Position numbers and translations under genes: made by a program. Below the pieces are notes generated by a model that saw only the letters and a program-made list of their open reading frames with translations, was not told the DNA's origin and did not search any database. Shown in pieces: positions 1-8,721 of a stretch of 33,827 bases of DNA. Every line of letters begins with the position of its first letter. Position 1 is the first letter of the stretch. Origin of the DNA: Candidatus Azobacteroides sp. (GTDB lineage: Bacteria > Bacteroidota > Bacteroidia > Bacteroidales > WRGA01); the NCBI GenBank assembly GCA_009787405.1, contig WRGA01000102.1, forward strand, positions 1 to 33,827, given 5' to 3'.

Positions 1-69
1 GCGTACCTGACGGCACGCTTGGTTGGTGCCGGCAACATTTTTCTACCGATATTTAGTGCCTGACGGCAC
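1..69. repeat. Degenerate copy of GTCCC/GGGAC hairpin repeat family
   Basis: This stretch shares the phrase TTTTTCTACCGATAT followed by a short hairpin with the element at 19352-19692. Here the hairpin is GTGCC-TGAC-GGCAC (56-69), whereas elsewhere it is GTCCC-TGAC-GGGAC, so both stem arms changed together. A second related hairpin with one mismatch lies at 1-18. The copy is cut by the window edge. Function is unknown. Confidence 0.6.
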
Positions 70-230
70 ATTTCAACACGTAATTTGTACAAAATATTGA
101 ATTTCACCCCGTGATTCGTATTATTACCGAAATTTCAAAGAAACATAAGACTGCATTCACTCCGACTAATTTATTAGGTGTTGTTTTTCAATATGTTACG
201 AATAAAAAGGTGAATTTGTAAAATAAATCC

Positions 231-261
231 TTGCCGGTTTGCAAAAAAATAACTAACATTG
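231..261 (+). promoter_or_regulatory. Candidate promoter of the thr leader/thrA
   Basis: TTG at 231-233, a 20-nt gap, and TAACATTG at 254-261 resemble the Bacteroidetes -33/-7 promoter (TTG, about 19-21 nt, TAnnTTTG), with one mismatch in the -7 box. It would start transcription near 267, about 40 nt before the leader peptide ORF at 310. This is inferred from consensus alone. The rest of 70-309 is AT-rich and shows no gene. Confidence 0.4.
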
Positions 262-309: not shown

Positions 310-369
310 ATGCAAAACAAACCTCCATATTTTTCTTATACAACTACAACGACCCCTTGGGGGGTATGA
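310..369 (+). CDS. Threonine operon leader peptide (thrL-like)
   Basis: A 19-codon ORF reads MQNKPPYFSYTTTTTPWGV and stops at TGA 367-369. Five Thr codons run without interruption (340-354) and use four different codons (ACA, ACT, ACA, ACG, ACC), so this is not a simple DNA repeat. It lies 146 bp upstream of thrA on the same strand. In attenuated amino-acid operons such peptides make ribosomes stall when the cognate charged tRNA is scarce. The function here is inferred from codon content and position. The ORF is far too short to stand on coding statistics, but a run of the pathway's end-product codon in front of the first threonine gene is hard to dismiss. Confidence 0.75.
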   Translation: MQNKPPYFSYTTTTTPWGV

Positions 370-380
370 TCAACTTTTCT

Positions 381-407
381 CGAAAATTCAGCTTTTCGTC
401 GGTTTTT
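381..407 (+). terminator. Candidate attenuator terminator
   Basis: CGAAAA (381-386) can pair with TTTTCG (393-398) around a 6-nt loop, and TTTTT follows at 403-407. The hairpin begins 12 nt after the leader peptide stop, where an attenuator would be expected. The stem is short and AT-rich, so it is weak evidence alone. I could not derive a convincing alternative antiterminator pairing by eye. Confidence 0.35.
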
Positions 408-515: not shown

Positions 516-2951
516 ATGAAAGTATTAAAATTTGGTGGAACATCCGTAGGTTCCATAGAAAGTTTATCGAATGTAAAGAAAATAGTGGAGGTTTGCAACG
601 AGCCGCTCATTGTGGTTGTTTCCGCACTGGGCGGAGTTACCGATAAATTATTTGAAACATCGAGACTTGCTTCCCTGGGAGATACGTCATACGAAAAAGA
701 ACTGGTCAAAATCATCAATCGTCATTTAGCCATTATCGAAGGCATTGTGCCCGAAAAATACCGGAATGAGCTGACGGAAGATGTCATGGCTTTGTTGGAT
801 GAATTGTCGAATATTTATCGGGGAGTGTACCTGATCAAAGAACTTTCTCCGAAAACGAGCGATACCATTGTCAGCTACGGAGAAAGATTATCTTCTCTGA
901 TTATCAGTAAAGTGATTGACGGAGCGGAATTGTTCGATTCCCGTCAGTTCATCAAGACCAAAAAATTATTTGCAAAACACGAAGTGGATGTTGAATTGAC
1001 GACCAAGCTCGTTCAGGAATATTTCGTTTCCGGGCCGAAAGTTTGTCTGGTGCCCGGATTTATTTCTTCCGACAGGGAAACAAATGATGTGACCAATTTG
1101 GGACGCGGAGGTTCCGATTATACGGCTTCGCTTTTGGCGGCGATATTGAATGCCGATGTGTTGGAAATCTGGACGGACGTCGACGGTTTTCTGACAGCTG
1201 ATCCGCGGGTAATCAGTACGGCGTATGTAATCGATAAACTGAGTTATATCGAAGCGATGGAATTGTGCAACTTCGGGGCAAAAGTCATTTATCCGCCGAC
1301 CATTTATCCGGCTTATCATAAAAATATTCCCATTCGCGTGAAAAATACGTTTAATCCGAATGCTCCGGGAACCTATATTTCCCATGAAAAAGTGGATGGA
1401 AAAGGAAAAGCCATCAAGGGTATTTCCTCCATCAACGATACTTGTCTGATTACGATTCAAGGGTTGGGAATGGTCGGTGTCATCGGTGTCAATTACCGCA
1501 TTTTCAGGGCGTTGGCATCTTCGGGAATCAGTGTGTTTATGGTTTCTCAAGCCTCTTCCGAAAACACGACCTCCATCGGCGTGAAAAATTCGGATGCGGA
1601 TGCGGCATTGGTTGTTCTCCGTAATGAGTTTAAACGGGAAATCGAGCAAGGCGAATTAAATAACATCAAAGCCGAAAAAGATTTGGCGACGGTCGCCATT
1701 GTCGGAGAAAACATGAAACATACGCCCGGTATTGCCGGTAAATTATTCAATACGCTCGGTCGAAACGGGATTAATGTCATTGCCTGTGCGCAAGGCGCTT
1801 CCGAAACCAATATTTCTTTTGTGATCGATTTGAAGAATTTGCGCAAAGCATTGAACGTGATTCACGATTCTTTTTTCTTGTCCGAATACCGGGCCTTGAA
1901 TTTGTTTGTGATCGGGATCGGAACGGTGGGCGGAAGCTTGTTGGAGCAAATTCGCATGCAACAGCCGATGTTGATGAAGCAAAATTCGTTGAAAATAAAG
2001 GTGGTGGGCATTGCCGATGAATACAAAGCCGTGTTCAAGCGCGAAGGGATCGACTTGTCAAATTACCGGGAAGAATTGGAAAAGAACGGAAAACCCAATT
2101 CGCCCGAATTGATGAAAAGGGAAATTCTGGATATGAATATTTTCAATTCAGTATTTGTGGATTGCACCGCAAGTCCTGAAGTTGCCGGATTATACAAAGA
2201 GTTGTTGTCGAATAACGTATCGGTTGTTGCGGCCAATAAAATCGCCTCTTCGTCTAATTACAAGCATTATGCCGAACTGAAAGATATTGCCCGCAAACGG
2301 AATGTAAAATATTTGTTTGAAACCAATGTAGGTGCGGGATTGCCGATCATTAATACCATCAATAATCTGATCAACAGCGGCGATCGCATTTTGAAATTGG
2401 AAGCGGTATTGTCGGGAACGTTGAATTTCATTTTCAACACCATCAGCGAAGAAATACCGTTGAGCAAATCCATTTTAATGGCGAAAGAAGCCCGTTATTC
2501 CGAACCCGATCCCCGCATCGATTTAAGCGGGAAAGACGTGATTCGCAAACTGGTAATTCTTGCGCGTGAATCGGGATATGAAATCGATCAGGACGATGTT
2601 GTTAAAAATTTATTCATTCCGGATAAATATTTTCGAGGATCATTAGACGATTTTTGGAAAACCATTCCCGAAATAGATGCCGAATTTGAAGCGAAACGCA
2701 AAGTGTTGGCTGCCGAAAACAAACATTGGCGTTTTGTCGCCAAACTCGAAAACGGCATTGCCGAAGTAGGCCTGCAAGCCGTTGACAGCCGTCATCCGTT
2801 TTACGATCTCGAAGGCAGCAATAACATCATCATGATCACCACCGAACGTTATTATGATTACCCGATGATCATCAAAGGTTACGGCGCCGGCGCGGGTGTT
2901 ACCTCTGCGGGAGTTTTCGCCGATATTATTAGTATTGCAAATATTCGATAA
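516..2951 (+). CDS. thrA: Bifunctional aspartate kinase/homoserine dehydrogenase I
   Basis: This 811-residue fusion phosphorylates aspartate and later reduces aspartate semialdehyde to homoserine, the first and third steps of the threonine branch. The N-terminal kinase shows KFGGTSVGS at residues 5-13 and GRGGSDYT at 196-203. Two ACT-type regulatory segments follow, including SQASSE near 344-349, which suggests allosteric control by threonine. The dehydrogenase half begins with the dinucleotide-binding motif GIGTVGG at 467-473. Length matches the usual thrA fusion of about 810-820 residues. The ATG at 516 places the conserved KFGGTS motif at residue 5, as in other aspartokinases. A leader peptide rich in Thr codons lies upstream. 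The next threonine gene, apgM, is about 1 kb away because a repeat-flanked GxxExxY gene lies between. Confidence 0.97.
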   Translation: MKVLKFGGTSVGSIESLSNVKKIVEVCNEPLIVVVSALGGVTDKLFETSRLASLGDTSYEKELVKIINRHLAIIEGIVPEKYRNELTEDVMALLDELSNIYRGVYLIKELSPKTSDTIVSYGERLSSLIISKVIDGAELFDSRQFIKTKKLFAKHEVDVELTTKLVQEYFVSGPKVCLVPGFISSDRETNDVTNLGRGGSDYTASLLAAILNADVLEIWTDVDGFLTADPRVISTAYVIDKLSYIEAMELCNFGAKVIYPPTIYPAYHKNIPIRVKNTFNPNAPGTYISHEKVDGKGKAIKGISSINDTCLITIQGLGMVGVIGVNYRIFRALASSGISVFMVSQASSENTTSIGVKNSDADAALVVLRNEFKREIEQGELNNIKAEKDLATVAIVGENMKHTPGIAGKLFNTLGRNGINVIACAQGASETNISFVIDLKNLRKALNVIHDSFFLSEYRALNLFVIGIGTVGGSLLEQIRMQQPMLMKQNSLKIKVVGIADEYKAVFKREGIDLSNYREELEKNGKPNSPELMKREILDMNIFNSVFVDCTASPEVAGLYKELLSNNVSVVAANKIASSSNYKHYAELKDIARKRNVKYLFETNVGAGLPIINTINNLINSGDRILKLEAVLSGTLNFIFNTISEEIPLSKSILMAKEARYSEPDPRIDLSGKDVIRKLVILARESGYEIDQDDVVKNLFIPDKYFRGSLDDFWKTIPEIDAEFEAKRKVLAAENKHWRFVAKLENGIAEVGLQAVDSRHPFYDLEGSNNIIMITTERYYDYPMIIKGYGAGAGVTSAGVFADIISIANIR

Positions 2952-3070: not shown

Positions 3071-3154
3071 AAACTTGTGGGTTAATAGTTGTTTTTTTGG
3101 AAATCAGGAAACAATATTTTTGTAGAATTATTAATATATAATTTATACGAAGAT

Positions 3155-3532
3155 ATGGAAGATCTGAATAAAAAAACTTACGACATTCGAAAAGTATGCT
3201 TTGATATTCATAATAATTTGGGACCGGGATTATTGGAAAGTGTATATGAAGCGGTGTTGAGTTATAAGTTGTCTCAAAGGGGATATAATGTTAAGACACA
3301 AGTTCTGTTGCCGGTTATATATGAGGGCATAAAAATTGGCATGGGATTCAGATTGGATTTGTTGATTGATGATGAGATTATCATTGAGTTGAAATCTGTG
3401 GAAAGTTTACAACGGGTTCATGTAAAACAATTATTGACTTATTTGAGATTGGCAGATGTAAAATTAGGATTGTTGATAAACTTCAATTCCGATTCTTTGG
3501 ATAGAAAGAACTTTGTCAGATTGATCAATTGA
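3155..3532 (+). CDS. GxxExxY family protein (PD-(D/E)XK-like nuclease fold)
   Basis: The 125-residue product contains the family signature GLLESVY (GxxExxY) within a conserved NxxGPGLLE context. Further along are RLDLLIDDEIIIELKS-type residues that resemble the D...ExK core of PD-(D/E)XK nucleases. The family is common in Bacteroidetes and its role is not established. I chose the ATG at 3155 because translation then begins MEDLNKKTYD as in other members. The open frame extends upstream to 3089, but that part overlaps low-complexity sequence. The gene sits between thrA and apgM and is enclosed by inverted repeats on both sides, which suggests it arrived as a unit with them. Base composition is more AT-rich than thrA. 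Confidence 0.85.
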   Translation: MEDLNKKTYDIRKVCFDIHNNLGPGLLESVYEAVLSYKLSQRGYNVKTQVLLPVIYEGIKIGMGFRLDLLIDDEIIIELKSVESLQRVHVKQLLTYLRLADVKLGLLINFNSDSLDRKNFVRLIN

Positions 3533-3976: not shown

Positions 3977-5185
3977 ATGAAATATATCGTAATTTTAGGC
4001 GACGGAATGGCTGATGAGCCGATTGAAGCCTTGGGAAATAAGACGCCGCTGCAGTTTGCCGATACACCGAATATCGACAAATTGGCGAAACAGGGAAAAT
4101 CGGGCATGTTGAAAACCATTCCCGCCGGCTTTTCACCGGGAAGTGAAATAGCCAACCTGTCGGTATTGGGATACAACGTTGCCGAAGTGTTTGAGGGACG
4201 CGGTTCGCTCGAAGCCGCAAGCATGGGAGTGGAAATTTTGCCCGGTGAAATGGCCATGCGGTGCAATTTGATTTGCATCGAAAACGGAAAAATCAAAAAT
4301 CATTCGGCGGGGCATATTTCCAACGAAGAAGCAGAAGAATTGATTCAATATCTGAATGAAAATTTGGCAAATGATACCGTCCGTTTTTATCCCGGAGTAT
4401 CTTACCGGCATTTGTTGAAGATAAAAAACGGCAATAAATATGTCGATTGCACCCCTCCGCATGATGTGCCGGGAACGCCGTTTAAGGAGGTCATGATAAA
4501 AGCCGGAGTTCCGGAAGCGCAAGAAACGGTCGACTTATTAAACAACCTGATTCTTCGTTCGCAAGAATTGTTGGAAAATCATCCCGTAAACATAAAGCGG
4601 AAAGCCGAAGGAAAAGATCCGGCCAACAGTATTTGGCCTTGGTCGCCCGGATACAAACCGAAAATGAAAAAATTATCCGAACTTTACCCCATTCAATCGG
4701 GAGCCGTAATTTCGGCGGTGGATTTAATCAAAGGCATCGGCGTTTATGCCGGGTTGGAACCGATCGAAGTGGAAGGAGCGACCGGTCTTTACAACACTAA
4801 TTATGAAGGAAAAGCCCGGGCCGCCATCGATGCTTTGCGTAAAGGAGATTTCGTGTATTTGCACATTGAAGCCAGCGACGAAGCCGGACACGAAGGCGAT
4901 TTCAATTTGAAAGTAAAAACCATCGAATATTTGGATAAACGTGTTGTAAAGCCGATTACGGAAGAATTGCAAACTTGGGATGAGCCCGTTACCATTGCGC
5001 TTTTGCCCGATCATCCGACGCCCTGCCGGTTGAAAACGCACACCTCCGATCCGGTTCCTTTCATCATTTACAGATCGAATGAAAAAGGAGACGAAGTAAA
5101 AGAATATGATGAATTTTCCGCAGGGAAAGGCATTTACGGTTTGTTGAAAGGAAATGAATTCATGAAAGTTTTGTTCGGGCAATAA
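3977..5185 (+). CDS. apgM: ApgM-type phosphoglycerate mutase family; probable homoserine kinase
   Basis: This 402-residue protein belongs to the archaeal-type cofactor-independent phosphoglycerate mutase family (COG3635, alkaline phosphatase superfamily). Visible features are the metal-binding start GDGMAD (residues 8-13), the segment PGSEIANLS (54-62) with the presumed phosphorylated Ser56, and later HIEASDEAGHEGD and PDHPTP/HTSDP metal-ligand clusters. In Bacteroidetes it typically lies between thrA and thrC, and no thrB is visible in this window. A role as homoserine kinase, filling the missing step, is therefore more likely than glycolysis. I recall genetic work on a Bacteroides homologue supporting this but cannot check it here. 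The start at 3977 is supported by the typical MKYIVILGDGMAD N-terminus. Confidence 0.9.
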   Translation: MKYIVILGDGMADEPIEALGNKTPLQFADTPNIDKLAKQGKSGMLKTIPAGFSPGSEIANLSVLGYNVAEVFEGRGSLEAASMGVEILPGEMAMRCNLICIENGKIKNHSAGHISNEEAEELIQYLNENLANDTVRFYPGVSYRHLLKIKNGNKYVDCTPPHDVPGTPFKEVMIKAGVPEAQETVDLLNNLILRSQELLENHPVNIKRKAEGKDPANSIWPWSPGYKPKMKKLSELYPIQSGAVISAVDLIKGIGVYAGLEPIEVEGATGLYNTNYEGKARAAIDALRKGDFVYLHIEASDEAGHEGDFNLKVKTIEYLDKRVVKPITEELQTWDEPVTIALLPDHPTPCRLKTHTSDPVPFIIYRSNEKGDEVKEYDEFSAGKGIYGLLKGNEFMKVLFGQ

Positions 5186-7410: not shown

Positions 7411-8721
7411 ATGAAATACTACAGCACCAACAAACAATCACCGTCGGTTTCGCTGCAAGAGGCGGTAACAAAAGGGCTTGCTCCCGATAAAGGATTATAC
7501 ATGCCCGAAAAAATAAAATCGCTGCCCGATGAGTTTTACAAAAACATCGGAAACATGAGTTTTCAAGAAATGGCTTACCGAGTTGCCGATGCCTTTTTCG
7601 GGGAAGACATTGAACCGGATACGTTGAAAAATATGGTATATGATACGTTGAATTTCGATGCTCCGTTGGTGCATGTGAACGATCATATTTACAGCTTGGA
7701 GCTGTTCCATGGCCCGACGCTTGCCTTTAAAGATGTGGGAGCGCGTTTTATGGCGCGTCTGCTGGGTTATTTCATCAAAAAACAAGGCCAAAGTAATATC
7801 AATGTATTGGTCGCCACTTCGGGCGATACCGGAAGCGCTGTCGCAAACGGATTCTTGGGAGTGGACGGCATTCATGTGTATGTGTTGTACCCGAAGGGAT
7901 TGGTCAGCGAAATTCAGGAAAAGCAATTTACGACGTTGGGAAAGAACATCACCGCCGTGGAAATCGACGGCACGTTCGACGACTGCCAGCGATTGGTTAA
8001 ATCGGCCTTTTTGGATGAAGAATTGAATGCAAAGTTAAATCTGACTTCGGCCAATTCCATCAATGTCGCTCGTTTTCTGCCACAGGCATTTTATTATTTT
8101 TATGCTTATGCACAAGCCCTGAAACAAGGAAAAGCCGATAATGTCGTCATTTGCGTGCCGAGCGGAAATTTCGGGAACATCACCGCCGGGTTGTTTGCCA
8201 AACGCATGGGATTGCCTGTTAAACGGTTTATTGCGTCCAACAACAAAAACGATGTTTTTTTGGAATACCTTCAAACGGGAAAATACAATCCGCGTCCGTC
8301 GGTGGCTACCATTGCCAATGCGATGGATGTCGGCGATCCGAGCAATTTTGTCCGTATTTTGGATTTATATCATCATAATCATAAAAATATTTGCGCGGAA
8401 ATAAGCGGATGCCGGTACACCGACGACGAAATTCGTAAAACCATGCGGGACGTTTACAAACAAACGAACTATTTGCTCGATCCGCACGGAGCATGCGGAT
8501 ATGCGGCATTAAGGGATTTATTGCAAAAAGACGAAACGGGAATTTTCTTGGAGACCGCTCATCCCGCCAAATTTTTGGAAACAGTGGAAAATACGATTCA
8601 ATCATCCGTACCCATTCCCGAAAAACTGCAAGCCTTTATGAAAAAAGAAAAGCAAAGCATCCCGATGGGAAAAGAATTTGAAGAGTTTAAACGGTTTTTG
8701 TCGGAATCGGTAGGGAATTAA
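7411..8721 (+). CDS. thrC: Threonine synthase
   Basis: This 436-residue PLP enzyme converts O-phosphohomoserine to threonine, the last step of the pathway. The cofactor lysine is Lys107 in GPTLAFKDVGARF. The glycine-rich phosphate loop appears as ATSGDTGSAVA, and SANSINVARFLPQ and CVPSGNFGN are typical. The N-terminus MKYYSTNKQSPSVSLQEAV and the length match the long bacterial ThrC class. The last ~50 codons are duplicated twice downstream (8764-8889 and 9489-9650). The functional copy is this one, since the others are fragments with altered stops. Confidence 0.97.
   Translation: MKYYSTNKQSPSVSLQEAVTKGLAPDKGLYMPEKIKSLPDEFYKNIGNMSFQEMAYRVADAFFGEDIEPDTLKNMVYDTLNFDAPLVHVNDHIYSLELFHGPTLAFKDVGARFMARLLGYFIKKQGQSNINVLVATSGDTGSAVANGFLGVDGIHVYVLYPKGLVSEIQEKQFTTLGKNITAVEIDGTFDDCQRLVKSAFLDEELNAKLNLTSANSINVARFLPQAFYYFYAYAQALKQGKADNVVICVPSGNFGNITAGLFAKRMGLPVKRFIASNNKNDVFLEYLQTGKYNPRPSVATIANAMDVGDPSNFVRILDLYHHNHKNICAEISGCRYTDDEIRKTMRDVYKQTNYLLDPHGACGYAALRDLLQKDETGIFLETAHPAKFLETVENTIQSSVPIPEKLQAFMKKEKQSIPMGKEFEEFKRFLSESVGN

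Follow-up and report, generated by a model that had tools for sequence, protein, structure and literature searches.

In E. coli and Salmonella, the thrA gene is directly preceded, as in the DNA analysed here, by a short open reading frame (ORF) rich in codons for the end products of the pathway; this ORF, thrL, encodes a peptide that uses Thr and Ile, and the Rfam family is named Thr_leader. The thrL sequence contains eight ACC codons (PMC1183508). A leader-peptide element of a Bacteroidetes biosynthetic operon has likewise been described under the name Bacteroid-trp (RF01692, "Bacteroidete tryptophan peptide leader RNA"), and the amino-acid leaders of the Actinobacteria and Firmicutes (PMC1262725; for hisS, PMC2965389) are also ORFs with control codons located upstream of genes for amino acids or for aminoacyl-tRNA synthetases. 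One 2010 paper (PMC2965389) knew of leader-peptide systems only from the Proteobacteria, the Actinobacteria, and its own Firmicutes examples; and the 5' untranslated regions of B. thetaiotaomicron contain small ORFs reminiscent of leader peptides, among which thr is not named (PMC7366714). The open-access literature that we searched does not describe a thr leader in the Bacteroidetes; a 2010 study by Lopatovskaya et al. that compared attenuation systems, cited in PMC4833913, may contain a prediction.

The window—by which we mean the whole stretch of DNA analysed, 33,827 nucleotides in length—carries a thr operon in the order thrA, hsk, and thrC, preceded by a short ORF and a hairpin that we designate P1:

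310..369 (stop codon at 367-369), + strand: leader ORF, MQNKPPYFSYTTTTTPWGV*, kept in a same-genus relative and across the Bacteroidales
340..354, + strand: control codons, five Thr codons (ACA ACT ACA ACG ACC), with synonymous differences in the relative L083
352..365, + strand: hairpin P1, ACCCC-UUGG-GGGGU, 5 bp, supported by a pattern search, by gene context, and by an equivalent hairpin in covariance models
516..2951, + strand: thrA, bifunctional aspartate kinase/homoserine dehydrogenase I (NF006959, 1023.9 bits; Pfam AA_kinase, ACT, and Homoserine_dh)
3977..5185, + strand: hsk, phosphoglycerate-mutase-like proposed homoserine kinase (TIGR02535, 567 bits; NF003242, 581 bits)
7411..8721, + strand: thrC, threonine synthase (TIGR00260, 315 bits)

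A gene of the GxxExxY family (3089-3532) separates hsk from thrA, and hsk and thrC have three further genes between them, among which are those for a GNAT acetyltransferase and a methyltransferase. The leader ORF reads Met-Gln-Asn-Lys-Pro-Pro-Tyr-Phe-Ser-Tyr, then five Thr, then Pro-Trp-Gly-Val and the stop. The initial annotation, made from this DNA alone, had pointed to a short ORF with five mixed Thr codons before thrA, which description was exact both in the position (310-369) and in the gap of 146 nt between the stop codon and the thrA ATG at 516. On both strands of the 33.8-kb window we found only one run of at least five consecutive ACN codons, compared with a chance expectation under a first-order Markov model of about 0.03 per strand, and of 0.001 such Thr-codon runs within the 515 nt upstream of thrA. 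The window thus presents what characterizes a leader peptide: a run of end-product codons in a short ORF upstream of the biosynthetic operon.

Transcription of this ORF may start from a promoter recognizable by two elements:

231..233, + strand: TTG, candidate -33 element lying 20 nt upstream of the -7 box, matching the sigma-ABfr consensus
254..261, + strand: TAACATTG, candidate -7 box, sigma-ABfr-like

The sigma-ABfr consensus consists of TTTG at -33 and TAnnTTTG at -7 (PMC7366714), and the transcription start predicted from the window, near 268, would lie upstream of the leader ORF. A similar -7 box with an upstream TTG or TTT is present in 69 of 108 distinct leaders from the clades described below, and lies a median of 41 nt upstream of the position where the leader ORF starts. 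That the ORF has no Shine–Dalgarno sequence, as had been remarked, is true, yet normal for the phylum, since the Bacteroidetes normally lack that sequence (PMC7366714). The G-run of P1 was considered as a Shine–Dalgarno-like sequence serving another ORF, whose ATG at 366 overlaps the stop codon of the leader, and discarded, that arrangement not being conserved beyond the genus.

Two other genomes of the genus were available, one of them with an intact thrA (83% identical to that of the window) and readable upstream DNA (L083), in which the leader is MQINPKYLFSYTTTTTPWGV* and the Thr run is ACG ACT ACT ACA ACC, in which three codons out of the five are synonymous substitutes for those of the window. 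The loss of the Thr-run ORF in close relatives, which had been named as evidence against a leader peptide, is accordingly the opposite of what we observed. A comparison of the thrA upstream regions of the Bacteroidales, also proposed in that annotation, revealed that a Thr-codon ORF and P1 recur before thr genes.

P1, a short GC hairpin, emerged as the constant RNA feature of those regions when we read 80 Bacteroidales loci. Its 5' arm is made up of the final Thr codon and a portion of the Pro codon next to it, the hairpin therefore overlapping the end of the leader ORF, and the P1 sequence of the window (ACCCCTNNGGGGGT) has a single exact match in the whole genome, at 352-365. The contents of the loop vary—a Trp, Arg, Gln, or Leu codon, or a stop codon—and the leader stop codon falls anywhere from inside that loop to about 26 nt past the hairpin, which variation indicates that what is conserved is the hairpin and not the C-terminus of the peptide. 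Since the pairs are nearly invariant, the support for P1 comes from conservation, with almost none from covariation. Judged from sequence position alone, a hairpin so placed at the end of the ORF could be opened or closed according to the position of a ribosome. The initial annotation had overlooked P1, and it is this hairpin at 352-365, instead of the downstream stem cited there, that is conserved as an RNA element. In Phocaeicola and the Tannerellaceae a GGG:CCC pairing could form an alternative hairpin before P1, which pairing is absent in the window.

The genomic specificity of the combination was assessed with a pattern for a Thr codon plus P1 (ACNACCCCTTRGGGGG) in 393 genomes of the order, with the reversed pattern as the control: 24 matches, one per genome, were obtained versus three for the reversed pattern. 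In twenty-one cases thrA follows the match at a distance of 61-226 nt; in two, whose Thr runs are 8 and 11 codons long, thrB-thrC follows; and the remaining match, within an unrelated coding sequence, is probably due to chance. A further pattern, ACCCYTNNGGGGNTNR, was badly chosen and made for an uninformative search. Close to the thrA locus of Bacteroidales bacterium SW299 there is a CRISPR repeat (CRISPR-DR49; L041, positions 1-96, minus strand).

We also built covariance models of the Tannerellaceae version (R1) and the Bacteroidaceae version (R2) from the part that follows the control codons, both models taking in the last two bases before P1 and hence having a slight bias to ATG. R1 matched 37 of 80 Tannerellaceae genomes and R2 matched 30 of 101 Bacteroidaceae genomes, each of them once; the 60 loci fetched from those matches were all at thr genes (55 at thrA and 5 at hsk-thrC), and 13 more loci from two further genera were all at hsk-thrC, for a total of 73 of 73 preceding thr genes. 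In the second of the two further genera, two genomes had two matches each, all at hsk-thrC. R1 produced no match in the window or in L083, so that for this genus only the ORF, the Thr run, and P1 are established; the structures present downstream of P1 in the well-sampled clades are absent in the window. A scan of the window with Rfam returned only a tRNA at the gathering threshold and no leader family, Thr_leader and Bacteroid-trp included, and a scan of ten relatives gave no relevant match.

The structures of those clades differ beyond P1. The Tannerellaceae leaders have three hairpins, P1 to P3, the last of which is followed by a U-run; among 32 distinct rows 96.5% of the cells pair, in an alignment fitted to the model, and 14 of the 23 pairs are changed on both sides, a number that none of 500 shuffles reached. 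The Bacteroidaceae leaders have P1, a P2 whose CUACGYG loop is almost invariant (alignment A4), and beside it a covarying P3, with a covariation score of 0.293 versus 0.163 upon shuffling, this alignment too having been fitted to the model; some hsk-led members of the Bacteroidaceae type seem to have no P3. The covarying hairpin that the initial annotation recommended seeking in relatives was thus found in the leaders of these two families, but not in P1, whose pairs hardly vary. The Tannerellaceae are peculiar in another respect: their leader peptide is conserved as AYYTWAL(T)MTPWGV (e.g. in L004, L009, L010, and L174-L203), with only two or three Thr codons before the Pro codon, and among 27 distinct leaders the changes in the YYTWAL codons fall at third positions, the first and second ones hardly varying. 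From the sequences, this pattern looks like selection on the peptide, which might possibly be an arrest peptide.

The control codons proved to follow the genes that the leader precedes. The thrA product provides the precursor that Met and Thr share, hsk and thrC serve to make Thr only, and Ile derives from Thr. We counted the residues before P1 in the 108 distinct leaders, with the frame set by P1 and the start codons excluded. The 93 thrA-led leaders contained 22% Thr (356/1590 residues) and 12% Met (189/1590), while the 15 hsk- or thrB-led leaders contained 34% Thr, 9% Ile, and a single Met among 401 residues. Within the Bacteroidaceae-type set, an internal Met occurred in all 35 thrA-led leaders versus 1 of 13 hsk-led ones; among the thrA-led leaders, 92 of the 93 had Met or Thr as the codon directly before P1, and among the others 14 of the 15 had Thr or Ile there. 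A Fisher test of Met against operon content gave 7e-9 when computed by leader, a value to be read with the relatedness of these sequences in mind: the hsk-led leaders belong to a few genera within a single family and the thrB-led leaders to another family, so that the independent events are few. What is kept, then, is the amino acid and not a fixed DNA sequence—the Thr codons are mixed, ACA being the commonest—and that amino acid is matched to the genes. The window itself and some other loci, such as those of the Coprobacter type, are thrA-led with Thr-only leaders, from which we conclude that Met is not obligatory. Seven hsk-led genomes have thrA at a separate locus, where we found no thr leader of the P1 type. 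In two hsk-led genomes (G412 and G579; loci L225 and L226) the split-off thrA is preceded by a short ORF of another kind, in which ARRxGFMP occurs and a GCCC-NNN-GGG hairpin sits right at an ATG CCC (Met-Pro), which element is possibly a Met-only analogue of P1.

The proposed terminator fared less well than the codons:

381..407, + strand: weak stem CGAAAA/UUUUCG of 6 bp (381-398) plus a T-run (403-407), unsupported as a terminator

The stem and the T-run are indeed there, as had been annotated, with a gap of 4 nt between them; but the stem, at -2.4 kcal/mol, is equalled or bettered by 6 of 15 shuffles, and we rejected it as an intrinsic terminator on that ground. The fold of the whole 131-nt leader was likewise no better than shuffles (z = +0.89). 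When the leaders were scanned for a hairpin plus U-run between P1 and the first gene, no conserved intrinsic terminator emerged, and many leaders were without a detectable candidate; L083, for its part, has a good hairpin with a U-run after P1 (-9.6 kcal/mol, 0 of 15 shuffles). Nor did we find a mutually exclusive antiterminator in single-structure predictions, whether the 5' arm of P1 was included or left out: upon deletion of that arm, which deletion mimics a stalled ribosome, the downstream hairpins stay in the predicted folds, so that the classical exclusive (2:3) antiterminator is not seen. Pairing of the P1 G-run with a downstream U-rich tract, though appearing in several folds, was rejected, because pairing between G-rich and U-rich stretches is expected anyway and because the U-rich tract is transcribed too late to prevent an intrinsic terminator from acting. 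A cascade of P1, P2, and P3 like that of the his operon was also set aside, the complementarity between the 3' arm of P2 and the 5' arm of P3 amounting by eye to only about 4 bp in the Tannerellaceae; in Bacteroides we found none. The caution that the mechanism may differ from that of the enterobacteria stands.

Two other loci bear on what occurs in this group. The genome of the window contains a near-threshold Bacteroid-trp leader (L219; G000:C109:14989-15132, 44.9 bits against a cut-off of 49) with the ORF MIKQSGYTFWWWRLTINRFVRS*, including WWW, and a strong terminator, located upstream of a trpB-like ORF with an unrelated ORF in between; its presence means that leader-peptide control probably operates in that genome. 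In another genome of the order (G024), the locus L101 upstream of thrA is a textbook thr attenuator: its parts are the ORF MKHQLHTIITITTTRPQTS*, a strong terminator (about 13 bp, followed by a U-run), and an alternative antiterminator, which the RNA adopts if the 3' half of the terminator is missing. Insofar as these structures are predicted, L101 and L219 show that classical attenuation occurs in the Bacteroidales group.

We consider that ribosome-mediated leader-peptide control of the thr operon by charged tRNA-Thr is, with good probability, the best explanation of these results, and that the leader almost certainly senses the supply of threonine, along with that of methionine in many relatives. 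A promoter near 231-261 would give rise to a leader whose Thr control codons lie directly against P1. If charged tRNA-Thr were ample, the ribosome would pass P1 and stop, P1 would re-form behind it, and expression would be low; if Thr-tRNA were scarce, the ribosome would stall on the Thr codons with its footprint over the 5' arm of P1, and, with P1 thus blocked, RNA polymerase would proceed into thrA. P1 would accordingly have a role like that of the 1:2 (pause or protector) hairpin of the known attenuators, and the transcription of the leader would end at a lineage-specific intrinsic terminator or by way of Rho. The translation of the ORF, the stalling of the ribosome, the direction of control, and the termination step are all elements that we infer. 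Of the attenuation by charged tRNA-Thr proposed at the outset, the part that ties a leader peptide to the thr operon is strongly supported because of the conservation, the genomic specificity, and the control codons that follow operon content, but the part concerning the terminator is not. Several findings weigh against our explanation: the window has no convincing terminator or antiterminator, the folds give no mutually exclusive 2:3 structure, the pairs of P1 hardly covary, the downstream structures of the well-sampled clades do not occur in the window, and the Tannerellaceae leaders have few Thr codons and a conservation of AYYTWAL that is not explained by control codons alone.

If, as one alternative, the operon were under classical enterobacterial attenuation, the 381-398 stem with its T-run would be a terminator opposed to an antiterminator as in E. 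coli thrL; the position and order of the parts fit that scheme, as do the hairpin and U-run of L083 with its clear margin over shuffles, the covarying P3 and subsequent U-run of the Tannerellaceae, and the full 2:3/3:4 switch of L101, but the marginal stability of the window's own stem, the many leaders devoid of a detectable terminator, and the failure of the folds to predict an exclusive antiterminator make us regard it as unlikely here. If, alternatively, a ribosome over P1 decided whether Rho or an RNase attacked the untranslated leader, no intrinsic terminator would be needed, and the fact that the ORF and P1 alone are universal, while the part after P1 is clade-specific and often lacks a terminator, agrees with such control; the covarying P2 and P3, however, suggest that structure matters in some clades, and we hold this scheme only tentatively, as a possibility of some substance.

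An arrest by the nascent peptide (aromatic residues followed by TTTTTPWGV, or AYYTWAL in the Tannerellaceae), perhaps with a ligand and with the Thr codons as part of the signal, would account for the third-position changes in YYTWAL and for the recurrence of aromatic residues upstream of the Thr run in many leaders; we nevertheless think it improbable, for the residues at the C-terminus differ between leaders (W, R, Q, or L, or else a stop codon within the loop of P1) and most clades have no peptide conservation outside Thr, Met, and Ile. That the ORF should be a product of chance, or encode a small functional protein acting in trans, might be entertained on the grounds that short ORFs are common and that this one has no Shine–Dalgarno sequence; but all the model loci (73/73) and 23 of the 24 pattern matches lie directly upstream of thr genes, and codon identity tracks operon content, so that the joint proposal is scarcely credible, and a chance ORF in particular is excluded by the conservation data. 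Leader-peptide control by charged tRNA-Thr, our preferred reading, admits a bolder extension, which we put forward as speculative and rather doubtful: a thr leader family spanning the Bacteroidales whose switch would consist of the codon run and the abutting hairpin only, with neither an intrinsic terminator nor an antiterminator conserved, whose sensed amino acids would be re-tuned upon operon rearrangement—Thr plus Met when aspartokinase/homoserine dehydrogenase is in the operon, Thr plus Ile when only the Thr-specific branch is—and to which an arrest-like peptide would have been added in the Tannerellaceae.

The Bacteroidales are dominant gut bacteria, about whose sensing of their own amino acids little is known. 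The thr leader offers one locus, across many families, for direct tests of ribosome-based sensing without Shine–Dalgarno initiation, and the change between Met and Ile as the second codon along with operon content serves as a natural experiment in which to ask what such peptides respond to. Should the switch prove to need no intrinsic terminator, the textbook model of attenuation would be extended.

With respect to the known systems, the hsk-led leaders of the Bacteroidales share with thrL the use of Thr and Ile, whereas many thrA-led leaders have Met instead of Ile as the second control amino acid; and in contrast to the ACC codons of thrL, the Thr codons of the Bacteroidales are mixed, with ACA the most frequent. 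P1, moreover, abuts the control codons in the Bacteroidales, where we saw neither a strong terminator nor an antiterminator conserved across the leaders. Bacteroid-trp differs from the thr leader in sequence and in structure, the trp leader having a strong GC-rich terminator that the thr leader of the window does not have, and the leaders of the Actinobacteria and Firmicutes belong to other phyla, precede other genes, and have other RNA structures. The thr leader of the Bacteroidales appears, provisionally, to be an undescribed variant of a kind known from E. coli thrL and Bacteroid-trp.
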